A stretch of 64,000 nucleotides of DNA from Fodinibius halophilus (lineage in GTDB: Bacteria > Bacteroidota > Rhodothermia > Balneolales > Balneolaceae), in NCBI RefSeq assembly GCF_011059105.1, contig NZ_JAALLS010000006.1:62001-126000 (forward strand), read 5' to 3'. The translations under genes and the position numbers were made by a program. This document shows, piece by piece, positions 1,866 through 5,712 of this stretch. Within the stretch, counting starts at the first letter, position 1. The number at the start of each line of letters is the position of its first letter. Under the pieces are notes generated by a model. The model was not told the DNA's origin and ran no database searches. It was given only the letters and a program-made list of their open reading frames with translations.

Positions 1866-1900
1866 TTCAATGGCGGCCTCCACTCAATCACATAAAAGAA

Positions 1901-2799
1901 ATGACTGAATTGCCGTTCTTATCCTTAATTGGAAAAATATTACAGCTACCTTAGAATGTGTTTAATCTATATCTGGCTCCCGCAATGTAACTCCTGTAAT
2001 TTTTTTACTTGATAATGAATCTGAAGAAAAATCACTGGCAAAACTAAAAAAGGGCCTCAACAAATGTGAGGTGCAAATCAATATATATGCCAGTGAGCAA
2101 AATTTAGGATTTGCCGGAGGAGTAAATTACTTAGTAAAAAAAAATAAATCTGGATGATTTTTCAGGGCTTTTTTTACTAAATAATGATGCCAGTATCAAT
2201 CAGAATACCCTGTGGCCCCTGCTTAAACAAAGTCGACAGCAAAATATTAAGTTACTAAGACCTCAAAATAAAAACACAGAAACGGGAGCATCTCGACGCT
2301 GGCCATGGTGGCTGTTTGGAATTAGAACACCCCACGAGTTCAACCCGGATCTCCAATGTTGGCCTACCTTTTATATTGAAGGCTCGGCACTATTCATCCA
2401 AAAAGATCTTGTTCGTAGAATCTTAAAAAAACGAGAAAACCTATTTGATCGAAGATTTTTTTATATGCCGAAGACACTTAATTAGGGTTATTTGTGCAAA
2501 AAATGGGATTCCAACCCTACATCACCTCTAAAGCAATATTTGAACACAAAAATGGGTCTTCTCAATCAAATGAAAGACGTGCACTCACTTATTATTATAC
2601 AACGAGAAACCGTATCCTCCTTGCCAAAAATTACTTATCTGTCTATCTCAAACCATTATTCCATTCCTACTATTCTGTCACAAGAATTATAATAGCAACT
2701 TGCCAAATAGGTCTTGGGCGCAGTAATTTAGCCAGGGCTATTATAAAAGGATTAAAAGATGGATACCAAAAGAAGTATGGAAAATGGAACGAACACTGA
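1901..2799 (+). pseudogene. Broken family-2 glycosyltransferase
   Basis: No frame is open throughout, but pieces in different frames read as one GT2 (rhamnosyltransferase-like) protein in the correct order. They are NWKNITATLE; FLLDNESEEKSLAKL; EQNLGFAGGVN; FFLLNNDAS; EGSALFIQKDLV; FLYAEDT, stop, LGLF; then an intact tail from about 2494 containing FEHKNGSSQSN and YYYTTRNRILLAKNYL. At least two frameshifts and in-frame stops (for example TAA after EDT near 2488, where Glu is expected) separate the pieces. NND and the ED pair are the nucleotide-sugar and catalytic motifs of this family. An intact family-2 transferase lies at 22751-23770, so this copy may be a decayed relative. Confidence 0.8.
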
Positions 2800-2860
2800 A
2801 TTAACAAGATAGAATATTGAAAGTTTACCCTTCCTGATATCCCTCTCTTCTTAAGAGTAT

Positions 2861-2968
2861 TTAAATCTTCCTCTTCTTACCCTTCAGTACTTTGTACAAC
2901 AACTCACGAGCTCTAGAGATATGTGCTTTCACTATACCCAAGGGAGAATCCAGCATATTACAAATCAG
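2861..2968 (-). pseudogene. Detached 3' end of an ECF sigma factor gene
   Basis: Read on the minus strand this stretch gives MLDSPLGIVKAHISRARELL followed by a basic tail and TAA at 2863-2861. It closely matches the last ~35 residues of the intact sigma factor at 5068-5712 (ILDSPLGTVKAHIFRARELL). Nucleotide similarity is also plain, for example the shared run around CAACTCACGAGCTCTA. Similarity ends near 2960, so only the region-4 recognition helix and tail survive. It lies in the same orientation as the intact gene, on the other side of the MNIO cassette. Confidence 0.75.
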
Positions 2969-3352
2969 TATTAAAGGACGAACAGTTTAAGGGGGGTACC
3001 CGATGTTAGTATTTAAAATGCCACAATTTCAAGAAATTTTATCGGAATTATTGATTAAGTAATTAATATATTTTTATTACTTTTCTAAATATATTAATGC
3101 TATTGCAATACTATAACTTATAATAGTATCTGTTTTTACAATATGCAGTATTTTTTTATGTTGCAGTAGTTAAGTAAACTCAAGAGAATTAAACCCGCTG
3201 ATACCTATCCCAAAAAGATATCACATTACTAAATCATTCGAATGGTGAAATTTATCACCCATCGAAATGAGAGAAGAAAAGAAACTGTGCATCAAAATAA
3301 ACGCTAAGAATCCTTGCGTACAAAAGGATTCATCAATAAAAACTACTTTATC
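2969..3352. other. AT-rich intergenic region upstream of the peptide/MNIO genes
   Basis: About 380 bases with no credible gene, very AT-rich between 3040 and 3180. Near 3108-3127 there is an imperfect palindrome (TACTAT, 8 bases, ATAGTA) around a TATAAT-like hexamer, which is a plausible promoter or operator for the operon that follows. No -35 can be assigned with confidence. An upstream in-frame TTG (3314) would lengthen the next gene by 13 residues, but the ATG at 3353 is preferred. Confidence 0.35.
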
Positions 3353-3592
3353 ATGAAGATTTCAAAAGAAGACCTAAATTCAAGACCAAGTAAAAAAGAT
3401 ACAGCTGTTCATGTAACCGTACCAGCAAAGGTAGCTTACAACCTGGATGAGATGCAGAAAGTTACCTCAATTGTACTTGACAGGCTCAATTGTCCGGCAT
3501 GTCATTCGGGTTTCGATATTCGATTTGATATCGAAAAAAGGTTTAACTTTAATGAAGACCTGGAATTGATTGATCGTCCAAGGTTTCGTTAA
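3353..3592 (+). CDS. Small CPxC peptide, candidate precursor for the MNIO enzyme
   Basis: Seventy-nine residues from ATG 3353. The N-terminal half is Lys/Asp-rich (SRPSKKD) and could act as a leader. The C-terminal half has the only two cysteines (C47 and C50, in LNCPACHSGF), then alternating aromatic and charged residues (FDIRFDIEKRFNFNEDLEL) ending RPRFR. The stop is two bases before the ATG of the DUF692 enzyme. Short Cys-containing proteins directly before a DUF692/MNIO gene are typical of RiPP precursors such as those of methanobactin and bufferin-type systems, but I recognise no named precursor family. No signal peptide is visible. It could instead be a small regulator or Zn-binding protein. 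The role is inferred from context. Confidence 0.6.
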   Translation: MKISKEDLNSRPSKKDTAVHVTVPAKVAYNLDEMQKVTSIVLDRLNCPACHSGFDIRFDIEKRFNFNEDLELIDRPRFR

Positions 3593-3594
3593 GT

Positions 3595-5061
3595 ATGAAT
3601 ATTCCGGAACAGGGAGTTGGGATTATTTACTTCCCAGGGTTTGAAGATACCATAGAACTCAACTCAGATCTTATTTCAACTATTGAAATTGAGCCACAAA
3701 CTCTGTGGACTCATAACAAGACTGAGTTGAGTTCTTACTCCTATGATGAAGACAAAGTAGAATATCTCCAGGCATTGGATATACCTATCTCCTTTCATGG
3801 AGTGGGTTTTCCTATTGGCGGCTCTATTTCCTCTGATACCGAACATATCAATTGCATGCAGAAAATGATTGATGCTCTTGATCCTGTATGGTTGAGTGAG
3901 CATCTTAGTTTCAACAAGATCTATGCAGAAGATGCAGTAAGAAATACTAATTTTCTGTTGCCCCCCCTTCAAACAATGGAGGGTGCGTTGAATGCTGCAG
4001 AAAAAATTAAAGCGTATGCTTCACATTTCGACCTACCTTTTGCCTTTGAAACCGGTACAAATTACCTGCAACCACAAGATTTTGAGCTTGCAGATGGCCA
4101 TTTTATCAATGAGGTCGCTCGCAATGCAGATTGTAACATCCTGTTGGATATTCATAATCTGCTTTCTAATCAAAAAAATGGAAGGCAAAATATTTTTGAA
4201 GCCCTCTCACAAATAGACCTTAGCAGAGTTATACAAATTCACCTGGCAGGAGGATTTTATTTTGACGGGTACTATCTCGACGCCCATTCAGACGTTTCAA
4301 GCGCTGAAGTACTAGAGGTATTTGAAAAAGTGGTACGAATGTTACCTAACTTAAAGGCAATTACCTTTGAAATGCTTGCAGATTACCTTCCTGCTGTAAG
4401 TCAAGATGATCTGCGAAAACAGTTTGAAATCATGAATTCGGTTTGGGCGGAAAGAGGGAAAGATGCATCGGATACTGCTGCAGCCCCATTAACAGATAAA
4501 TCTTCTGATATGGATGCTCCCCGTCTTACAGATTATGAACATGAATTAGGATTACTTGCCATTCGAAAGCAAAAAGCTACAGAAGTTCCTTCGCTTGATT
4601 ATTTAAACCACGATAAAGGAGTAAAAATAATTCAATCCCTGATTGACAAATTCAGAAAATCACAGCTTGTCAGTTTTGCCAAATTATCATCCAGGTATAT
4701 TATGCTTAAATATGGAGAGGAAGCTTTTGAACAAGTCTTTTCCGATTACTGTATAAAAAACTATCCCTGTCTTTTTGCCTCAGACAGTGGCATTCTTTTT
4801 TCTGAATATTTATTAAACGATTCAGACTTGGTTGAAAATGATACCTTTTTTAAAGATTTGGTAACCTATGAGTATAACTCATTATTAACATATATGGATG
4901 GGGTTGAAAGGGAAGTAAATATATCATTTAACCCATATGATATTATTCCATCCCTGGAATCACGGGAATTACCGAAAGATGTTAGCACAGGCAACTATGT
5001 TATTCATATTACTCCTGAAGAAGACGCCAAAGAAAAAGTAAATACCGTATTTCACAGTTAA
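3595..5061 (+). CDS. DUF692 (MNIO) enzyme with C-terminal MbnC/DUF2063-like domain
   Basis: The N-terminal ~285 residues carry the multinuclear non-heme iron oxidase (DUF692) pattern on a TIM barrel: SFHGVGFPIGG (H68), SEHLSF (H103), FETGTN (E152), LLDIHNLLSN (D185, H187), IHLAGG (H216), DAHSD (D229, H231), and TFEMLADYLP (E259). These are the positions expected to bind iron. After a low-complexity linker (about 285-320), residues 340-440 resemble the separate partner proteins (MbnC/HvfC/BufC, DUF2063): helical, with EEAFEQVFSDYCIKNYP and a later SEYLLNDS. Families of this type usually have ~280 residues and a separate partner gene, so 488 residues suggests a fusion. It is two bases downstream of the CPxC peptide gene, its likely substrate. 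The final 45 residues are unassigned. Confidence 0.82.
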   Translation: MNIPEQGVGIIYFPGFEDTIELNSDLISTIEIEPQTLWTHNKTELSSYSYDEDKVEYLQALDIPISFHGVGFPIGGSISSDTEHINCMQKMIDALDPVWLSEHLSFNKIYAEDAVRNTNFLLPPLQTMEGALNAAEKIKAYASHFDLPFAFETGTNYLQPQDFELADGHFINEVARNADCNILLDIHNLLSNQKNGRQNIFEALSQIDLSRVIQIHLAGGFYFDGYYLDAHSDVSSAEVLEVFEKVVRMLPNLKAITFEMLADYLPAVSQDDLRKQFEIMNSVWAERGKDASDTAAAPLTDKSSDMDAPRLTDYEHELGLLAIRKQKATEVPSLDYLNHDKGVKIIQSLIDKFRKSQLVSFAKLSSRYIMLKYGEEAFEQVFSDYCIKNYPCLFASDSGILFSEYLLNDSDLVENDTFFKDLVTYEYNSLLTYMDGVEREVNISFNPYDIIPSLESRELPKDVSTGNYVIHITPEEDAKEKVNTVFHS

Positions 5062-5067
5062 TATTAC

Positions 5068-5712
5068 TTAGAACCGATCCTTTTTGTCTTTCAGCTCTTT
5101 GTACAACAGCTCACGAGCTCTAAAGATATGCGCTTTTACTGTGCCCAAGGGAGAATCCAGGATATCTGCAATCTCTTTATAACTTTTCTCCTCCATATGA
5201 CGCAGTTCAATAACCTTTCGATATTTTTCAGGAAGATCTTTAATCGCTTTTTGCACAATTTTTTTTCGCTGTTTTTTTATGATATCACGATCGGTTTTTG
5301 CAGACTCATCCGGGAGCTGTATCTCCATCTCTCCGTCTTTTGTCTTTACCGGATCATCAATGGAGAGCGTTTTTAGCTTTTTCTTTCGCAAATAATCAAT
5401 CGTATGATTGGTAGCAATGCGATATAACCACGTAGAAAAAGCGTAATTGGTATTGTAGGTATTCAGGTTATCAAAAGCCTTAACGAAAGCCTCCTGAACC
5501 AGATCTTCGACTTGCTCTCTGTCTTTCACCATTTTTAAAATATGAAAGAATAACGCCCGCTGGTATTTATCTACAAGCTTGGTATAGGCATCTTCGTTAC
5601 CGCCAATAGCCTTCTTTACCAGTTTATCATCTTCGAGACTACTTTCAGAGGCGTTTTCACGAGGAGATTCGTACTCTTCTTCACTTGTTGTCTTATTATC
5701 TGACATTCCCAA
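5068..5712 (-). CDS. ECF-type RNA polymerase sigma factor (RpoE family)
   Basis: Contains sigma region 2 (about residues 50-115: YQRALFFHILKMV, VEDLVQEAFVKAF, FSTWLYRIATN, and DYLRKKK) and sigma region 4 (about 150-205: LPEKYRKVIELRHME, YKEIADIL, and GTVKAHIFRARELL). The first ~30 residues are acidic and Ser-rich. A second Met at residue 3 is an alternative start. No anti-sigma gene is adjacent. Its stop is six bases from that of the MNIO gene (convergent). It is divergent from an outer-membrane protein gene across 251 bases, which may be a target. A 3'-end copy of this gene lies at 2861-2968. Confidence 0.9.
   Translation of the reverse strand: MGMSDNKTTSEEEYESPRENASESSLEDDKLVKKAIGGNEDAYTKLVDKYQRALFFHILKMVKDREQVEDLVQEAFVKAFDNLNTYNTNYAFSTWLYRIATNHTIDYLRKKKLKTLSIDDPVKTKDGEMEIQLPDESAKTDRDIIKKQRKKIVQKAIKDLPEKYRKVIELRHMEEKSYKEIADILDSPLGTVKAHIFRARELLYKELKDKKDRF

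Follow-up and report, generated by a model that had tools for sequence, protein, structure and literature searches.

More and more unusual peptide chemistry is being traced to enzymes of the MNIO (DUF692) superfamily, most of which are reported to need a separate partner protein; the literature is cited here from passages of the papers named. MNIOs act mostly on Cys residues (PMC12452194). The same paper (Antoine et al., 2025), which defines precursor groups and partner types and describes an MNIO-nitroreductase fusion, includes type-2 partners that lack the DUF2063 signature, and adjamnio-7, a group of signal-less precursors that contain CxxC and are encoded beside a small MNIO cluster. MovX and ChrH are named as exceptions to the separate partner (PMC13419390), and ChrH-type precursors end in CPxCGxG, the enzyme carrying a fused 7.8-kDa helical bundle (PMC12636315). 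As HvfB and HvfC bind each other weakly, an artificial HvfB-HvfC fusion (HvfBC) was built with the aim of a more active and homogeneous enzyme, and its activity exceeded that of the two proteins expressed together (PMC13419390). In this study, a 64,000-nt stretch of DNA from Fodinibius halophilus (Bacteroidota; contig NZ_JAALLS010000006.1, positions 62,001 to 126,000; hereafter the window) was analyzed, in which a gene for a small CxxC peptide directly precedes a gene for an enzyme that carries an MNIO domain and a partner-like domain in a single chain.

A mini-protein and an enzyme that recur together

The two open reading frames (ORFs) lie on the plus strand with a two-base gap (Table 1), confirming the 79-residue peptide with only two Cys that the earlier note had described from the letters of the window. 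We consider it fairly likely that they form a self-contained cytosolic module, in which a single-chain MNIO with a DUF2063-like partner domain oxidizes Cys of a folded (C/H)xxCxSG mini-protein, the modified mini-protein probably serving in metal handling.

The pairing was evaluated by scanning a genome collection with three fused enzymes, which yielded 18 loci besides the window from five phyla: Bacteroidota (Mucilaginibacter, Chitinophagaceae, and Galbibacter), Pseudomonadota (including Nitrotoga), Acidobacteriota (Bryobacterales), Actinomycetota (Streptomyces, Kitasatospora, and Mycolicibacterium), and Myxococcota. At all 18 loci, found via the enzyme, the peptide gene was located directly upstream of the enzyme gene. 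In the Streptomyces family, 8 of 200 genomes contained the C-terminal domain of the enzyme: those of L047 and L054, five with further intact pairs, and one with a remnant (G839). With the peptide as query, three of 274 genomes in the class of Nitrotoga matched, namely Nitrotoga itself, a new pair (G1128), and one match (G1054) that was judged from its locus to be due to chance. In Acidobacteriota, the phylum of L046, 199 genomes gave one match, already known. Overall, the peptide adjoined the enzyme gene at 25 of the 26 loci, window included (24 of the 25 found without the peptide query), and the sole locus lacking a recognizable peptide was the decayed remnant G839. Peptides apart from the enzyme were not encountered, all 25 matches (E ≤0.01; 21 genome handles, 19 distinct genomes) being at enzyme loci. 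The neighbourhood survey suggested by the earlier note thus found the pair in five phyla, and homologous enzymes lacking the peptide, which the note had held to speak against its proposal, were represented by the decayed copy only; the peptide reached no Pfam or NCBIfam cut-off.

For seven of the ten close pairs compared (five Mucilaginibacter pairs and one each from Bryobacterales and Streptomycetaceae), the ratio of nonsynonymous to synonymous substitutions (dN/dS) of the peptide was 0.08–0.20, and a chance ORF was ruled out by this purifying selection together with the recurrence in five phyla. Peptide distances followed enzyme distances over 21 of the 25 loci (L046, L048, L051, and L053 omitted), with an r of 0.82 that none of 2000 permutations equaled and that is also expected from shared ancestry alone. 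These results indicated that the peptide-enzyme pair is a real family.

The family is sparse, being present in one of 244 genomes of the window's class and, as a full-length match, in 2 of 394 genomes sampled in its phylum. Two enzymes are shorter, of 408 aa (L050) and 425 aa (L052), both reduced at the end; the frame of the L051 enzyme is broken, and that of L053 is cut by a contig end. Decaying enzyme copies were observed at L051:5941-6450 (Bryobacterales, broken frame) and at L104 (Streptomyces family, scattered remnants).

An MNIO domain and a partner-like domain in one chain

The N-terminal half of the enzyme matched PF05114 (MbnB_TglH_ChrH) over residues 57–253 with an E-value of 2.8e-37 and 128.8 bits against a cut-off of 25. 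Seventeen sequences were aligned, 19 loci being known at that time and the broken L051 and cut L053 being omitted, and all nine iron-ligand positions, H68, H103, E152, D185, N188, H216, D229, H231, and E259, were invariant (17/17). Eight of them had been named by pattern in the earlier note, and the ninth, N188, corresponds to Asn187 of TglH. The iron ligands of TglH, His71, His107, Glu151, Asp184, Asn187, His216, Asp229, His231, and Glu258 (PMC10880893), aligned in order with the nine of the window enzyme in a profile alignment. When the 17-sequence profile was compared with solved structures, TglH (8hci, E 4.1e-26), 3bww, and MbnB were found; consistently, the AlphaFold2 model of the enzyme gave Z scores of 24.4 to TglH 8hci, 23.5 to 3bww, and 21.0 to MbnB, the best non-MNIO barrel being at 16.4. 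These results demonstrate that the N-terminal half is a true DUF692/MNIO domain with a TIM-barrel fold. No NCBIfam subfamily cut-off was reached: MNIO_BufB, the best NCBIfam hit, scored 118.6 of 310 bits and MNIO_ChrH 36.8 of 600.

The C-terminal domain, whose best-aligned part covers about residues 334–436 (4594–4902), was assigned by profile comparison. When 23 aligned C-terminal domains were compared with 16 DUF2063-type partners, drawn from beside canonical MNIO genes (the L025 partner was omitted and none was seen at L010), hhalign gave a probability of 94.6%, an E-value of 6.6e-8, and a score of 57.4 over 96 columns. The controls were far lower, with at most 18.2 in 100 column shuffles, 16.0 for the reversed alignment, and 12.9–20.1 for four unrelated families. 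Taken singly, the two partner subtypes gave 42.5 and 54.5. The ChrH-like C-terminal part was unlike the domain (hhalign score 14.8). On these profile scores, the C-terminal half belongs with the DUF2063-type MNIO partner proteins, which bears out the resemblance noted earlier and speaks against an unrelated domain; as the cut-off of the Pfam model DUF2063 (PF09836) was not reached, it would be PME-type-2-like at most. PF09836 matched 2 of 17 family members below cut-off (best E 0.099), hits that carry no weight because an unrelated dehydrogenase model did at least as well (2/17, best E 0.044). Single-sequence scans, a two-member DUF2063 alignment, and a PDB profile search gave nothing decisive for this half, and the absence of TglI and NGO1945 from the fold listing of the enzyme is uninformative, since the TIM barrel fills the list. 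About 50 residues beyond the aligned part, modeled with low confidence, stand at the place of the RRE domain in partner proteins.

In the window and its relatives, the partner domain is fused with the MNIO and not separately encoded. The genome-wide placement of other MNIOs and DUF2063 proteins was then compared in 20 genomes. In five of them (G000, which is the window's own, G781, G787, G792, and G793), the fused enzyme was the sole MNIO and a DUF2063 match was absent. Twelve genomes carried DUF2063 proteins (15 matches), 14 of which had a canonical MNIO no more than 0.4 kb away, the remaining one (G796:C179) being on a contig without a listed MNIO; the actinobacterial G791, G794, and G798 had other MNIOs and no DUF2063 match. 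This placement indicated that no type-1 partner dedicated to the fused enzyme is visible. At G1128:C1:2755415-2758693, a canonical MNIO and DUF2063 pair was observed about 0.9 kb upstream of tandem CxxC peptides and the fused enzyme on the same strand.

In the phylogenetic tree, 23 fused enzymes grouped together (100/98) and separately from the 14 canonical and five ChrH-like MNIOs; 14 of the 18 canonical MNIO loci were taken (L016, L022, L023, and L025 omitted), and several fused rows were long-branched or of odd composition. Within the fused clade, the enzyme of Galbibacter (Bacteroidota) joined those of Bryobacterales (Acidobacteriota) with 98/98, and both are accompanied by two-domain peptides, which points to joint horizontal transfer of enzyme and peptide. 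A full-length relative of the enzyme was absent from the plasmid and phage collections, where 321 plasmid records matched a part and none more than 80% of it, and no peptide match was obtained in the plasmid collection.

The CxxC mini-protein and its proposed modification

The homologues favored the ATG at 3353 as start of the peptide gene, the ORF listing having opened the frame at an upstream TTG (3314, 92 aa). The window peptide contains two Cys in total, C47 and C50, in a single CPAC motif; CPACHSGFD is internal, 29 residues from the C-terminus, and single-domain members of the family extend 23–34 residues beyond the second Cys. Across 32 aligned domains, Gly53 was invariant, position 50 was Cys in 30 and Ser52 was likewise kept in 30, while position 47 was Cys in 28, His in two (L047 and L054, Streptomycetaceae), and Tyr in two. 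Both exceptions at Cys50 are extra Cys-less upstream paralogues (L040 and L053). These paralogues, at L040:5283-5549 and L053:5330-5551, have lost both motif Cys (YPDGYAG and YPDSYTG) and kept the remaining domain. Doubling of the peptide thus occurs in three forms, as tandem genes (L043 and L101), as two-domain proteins (L046, L048, and L051), and as the Cys-less extra copy.

Hydropathy revealed no hydrophobic signal stretch, the maximal Kyte-Doolittle value over 11 residues being 1.16 for the peptide of the window and no higher than 1.81 across the 32 rows, compared with 2.23–2.54 in three precursors taken as signal-bearing; by this measure, the peptide looks cytosolic. The window peptide had no Pfam or NCBIfam match, and the 32 family rows gave scattered weak hits (best E 0.015). 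An AlphaFold2 model built from 32 sequences had a mean predicted local distance difference test (pLDDT) score of 78, with 93–94 for residues 21–40 and 84–87 for residues 41–70, and consisted of a low-confidence start, a beta strand (19–24), a helix (31–44), the motif loop (45–55), a second strand (56–61), and then two-residue bridges only. As no solved fold stood out among PDB structures (best E 0.43 by Foldseek; best Z 3.2 by VIA, against 4-oxalocrotonate tautomerases and tied with many others), no fold family is claimed.

In the proposed mechanism, the fused partner domain would hold the co-encoded mini-protein, with its flexible N-terminus and small beta-alpha-beta domain, and the iron cofactor with O2 would oxidize a loop Cys of (C/H)xxCxSG, most likely the near-invariant C50 and possibly C47 with it. 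The product would probably be the whole modified mini-protein, retained inside the cell for metal handling. Two features hint at a metal site, namely the His that takes the position of Cys47 in two domains and the recurrent doubling. More tentatively, the module might represent intracellular protein maturation of a new class, with the first natural single-chain MNIO-partner enzyme, a Cys-derived metal ligand in a small folded protein, (C/H)xxC loops paired across a dimer or a two-domain chain, and a self-sufficient kit for building metal sites that is passed horizontally among phyla; this wider picture is less likely than not.

Several observations weigh against the module as proposed. The partner-like half of the enzyme gave no match to PF09836, so that the earlier note's suggestion of checking each half with hidden Markov models succeeded for the N-terminal half and failed for this one; a profile comparison with two partners only reached 9.4% probability, and this half of the enzyme model, made from a three-sequence input, was poor in confidence. 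Type-2 partners are invisible to a DUF2063 search and the genomes are perhaps incomplete, thus a separate partner may have been missed. In ORF listings at 14 loci, with ten proteins scanned against Pfam, no protease, exporter, or separate partner recurred, unlike in many clusters for ribosomally synthesized and post-translationally modified peptides, and no neighboring gene links the module to a metal. Further, dN/dS of the peptide was 0.59, 0.60, and 1.03 in the other 3 of the 10 close pairs, all among L047, L054, and L082 of Streptomycetaceae, suggesting weak constraint or a different selection in three of the four pairs of that family. Two of these fast-diverging peptides carry HxxC for CxxC.

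Chemistry of the ChrH kind was considered as an alternative, in which both Cys of CPxC would be converted into a macrocycle and a heterocycle, as by ChrH and DybH on CPACGMG, giving a cross-linked peptide and not a metal ligand. For DybH, a loss of four electrons (about -4 Da) is reported. The motifs CPACHSG and CPACGMG are close, ChrH also has a fused C-terminal domain, and ChrH-type clusters of Bacteroidota are likewise minimal, consisting of precursor and MNIO (PMC12636315). However, the fused and ChrH-like enzymes fell into separate clades (100/98 and 100/100), the MNIO_ChrH score was far below its cut-off, the C-terminal domains are unlike, the motif is internal here and C-terminal in ChrH precursors, and two Streptomycetaceae peptides have His for the first Cys. 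Membership in the ChrH subfamily, to which the CPxC motif and the fused domain had pointed, was therefore ruled out by the tree, the NCBIfam cut-off, the motif position, and the C-terminal domain, and chemistry of that kind is considered unlikely. Side by side with ChrH-like MNIOs, two precursors of ChrH type ending in CPACGMG were observed in the window's phylum (L027:1112-1312 and L030:2320-2544).

It is rather improbable that the peptide, instead of being the substrate, serves the enzyme as a metal-binding or a regulatory subunit, such as an iron loader, whose (C/H)xxC would bind Zn, Fe, or Cu. A Cys-to-His swap is common at metal sites, and 2 of the 32 domains carry His at the position of the first Cys; the doubling recurs in the three forms given above, the duplication of domains is suggestive of a dimeric site with four ligands, and the Pfam model Zn_ribbon_8 matched 2 of the 32 members (best E 0.078), amid other equally weak hits. 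In favor of a substrate, by contrast, no other substrate candidate recurs in the ORF listings at the 14 loci, and at L032, the one genome checked for this, a second, canonical MNIO is preceded by a different, Cys-rich gene. In bufferin operons, moreover, the precursor gene stands directly before the MNIO gene, in the same order as here (PMC12452194).

Genomic setting and comparison with known systems

The cassette segment is an acquired insertion in this lineage. Between queG and the extracytoplasmic function (ECF) sigma gene lie 3202 bp, compared with 11–251 bp between match ends in 10 of the 11 congeners; for the eleventh (L098), the stretch compared yielded no queG. The left part of this segment, at about 1987–2799 between queG and the cassette, contains a family-2 glycosyltransferase-like remnant (Pfam E 0.033, below cut-off, in one of the two pieces scanned). 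A direct repeat of 108 nt flanks the cassette (Table 1). Its left copy, a sigma-gene tail, is 88% identical over 76 nt to the genome's own gene and about 76% or less to those of the congeners over 37–89 nt. That the cassette is an inserted passenger, decaying and without present function in this genome, is very doubtful: absence of the segment from 10 of the 11 congeners, the adjoining glycosyltransferase-like remnant and partial sigma end, occurrence in a single genome of the class, and decay at other loci (the broken L051 frame and the G839 remnant) agree with it, but the frames are intact in the window, the ligands and both Cys are retained, the genes still abut, and the sigma-tail copy is 12% diverged over those 76 nt, which points to an insertion of some age.

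Table 1. Features of the cassette and its surroundings in the window
Feature	Coordinates	Strand	Length and basis
CxxC mini-protein, putative MNIO substrate	3353..3592	+	79 aa; ORF, family alignment of 32 domains, AlphaFold2 model, hydropathy
Signature N46-C-P-A-C-H-S-G-F-D55 of the mini-protein	3488..3517	+	Alignment of 32 domains
Fused MNIO-partner enzyme	3595..5061	+	488 aa, ATG start; 16 relatives aligned; one clade of 23
MNIO (DUF692, TIM-barrel) domain, residues 1-290	3595..4464	+	PF05114, model Z to TglH, ligand mapping
C-terminal domain, residues 296-488	4480..5058	+	Related to DUF2063-type MNIO partners by hhalign with controls
Segment between queG and ECF sigma gene, cassette-bearing insertion	1866..5067		Missing in 10 of 11 congeners
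Partial copy of the ECF sigma 3' end, left of the cassette	2851..2958		79% identical to 5058-5165 over 108 nt
Second repeat copy, the 3' end of the intact ECF sigma gene (5068-5712, -)	5058..5165		Repeat comparison

At the other loci, an acetyltransferase-like gene, named by eye, was found upstream at six of Mucilaginibacter type (L038–L041, L044, and L053) and was taken as vertical synteny. A shared extra gene for a protease, exporter, or regulator was dropped as part of the module, for among the ORFs listed at the 14 loci and the ten proteins scanned nothing recurred apart from this gene and the peptidases that follow. Papain-family peptidase genes were observed near two gammaproteobacterial cassettes, at L043:7714-7983 (minus strand, E 1.9e-6) and L045:2348-4252 (minus strand, E 3.1e-7), and were absent from the other scanned neighbors.

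In the surveyed literature, a natural MNIO-DUF2063 fusion is mentioned neither in the passages on fusions of PMC12452194, PMC13097082, PMC12257519, PMC13060819, and PMC12710340, nor in most of those of PMC13174530, PMC13419390, and PMC12636315, nor in the titles and abstract beginnings covered, a scope that ends short of subscription papers, bioRxiv preprints outside PMC, and supplements; the words 'fused' and 'fusion' are absent from PMC10214503. A natural single-chain MNIO-partner enzyme with a short substrate candidate offers a ready-made system for structure and mechanism where most MNIOs are reported to need a separate protein. A defined precursor family that crosses phyla is available for testing, and its HxxC variants and duplicated domains make the metal-site question directly testable.

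Among the described systems, BufABC and HvfABC resemble the window cassette in that an MNIO and a DUF2063-type partner act on a Cys-containing precursor, whose gene comes first in bufABC as here. In contrast to them, a single polypeptide unites MNIO and partner, and hydropathy reveals no Sec signal in the precursor, which has one (C/H)xxC instead of four, six, or repeated Cys; the fused clade also stands apart from the phylum's canonical MNIOs, the enzyme stays below the NCBIfam cut-off for BufB, and the window peptide falls outside the curated bufferin and oxazolin precursor models of Pfam and NCBIfam. TglHI is the system with the closest solved structure (8hci), sharing the DLHN and HLAGG motifs, the nine ligand positions, and a partner with a helical N-terminal domain; TglI is, however, separate, and TglH modifies a Cys appended to the C-terminus of TglA, while the Cys here are internal and genetically encoded.

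ChrH and DybH share the CPxC precursor motif, an MNIO with an extra C-terminal domain, and minimal clusters in other Bacteroidota, whereas they belong to another clade, their motif is not internal, and the extra domain is a helical bundle of about 7.8 kDa instead of about 190 DUF2063-like residues. MovX and PflD are likewise natural MNIO fusions, to a winged-helix/RRE domain and a nitroreductase, respectively, but they act on Asn and Asp, and no DUF2063-like domain is described for them in the passages covered. The statement of the earlier note that the peptide matches no precursor type familiar to its author held against the curated models and not against the literature, since CxxC has precedents in the ChrH-type CPxCGxG (PMC12636315) and in adjamnio-7 (PMC12452194). 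The window peptide fits the adjamnio-7 pattern, being signal-less, with CxxC, and beside an MNIO; compared by description only, adjamnio-7 (e.g., WP_078758616) may overlap the family, and fused enzymes are not mentioned for that group in the passages of PMC12452194 concerned. Thus, the enzyme superfamily and the partner type are known, the single-chain architecture is new, and the precursor family is new unless adjamnio-7 is the same.

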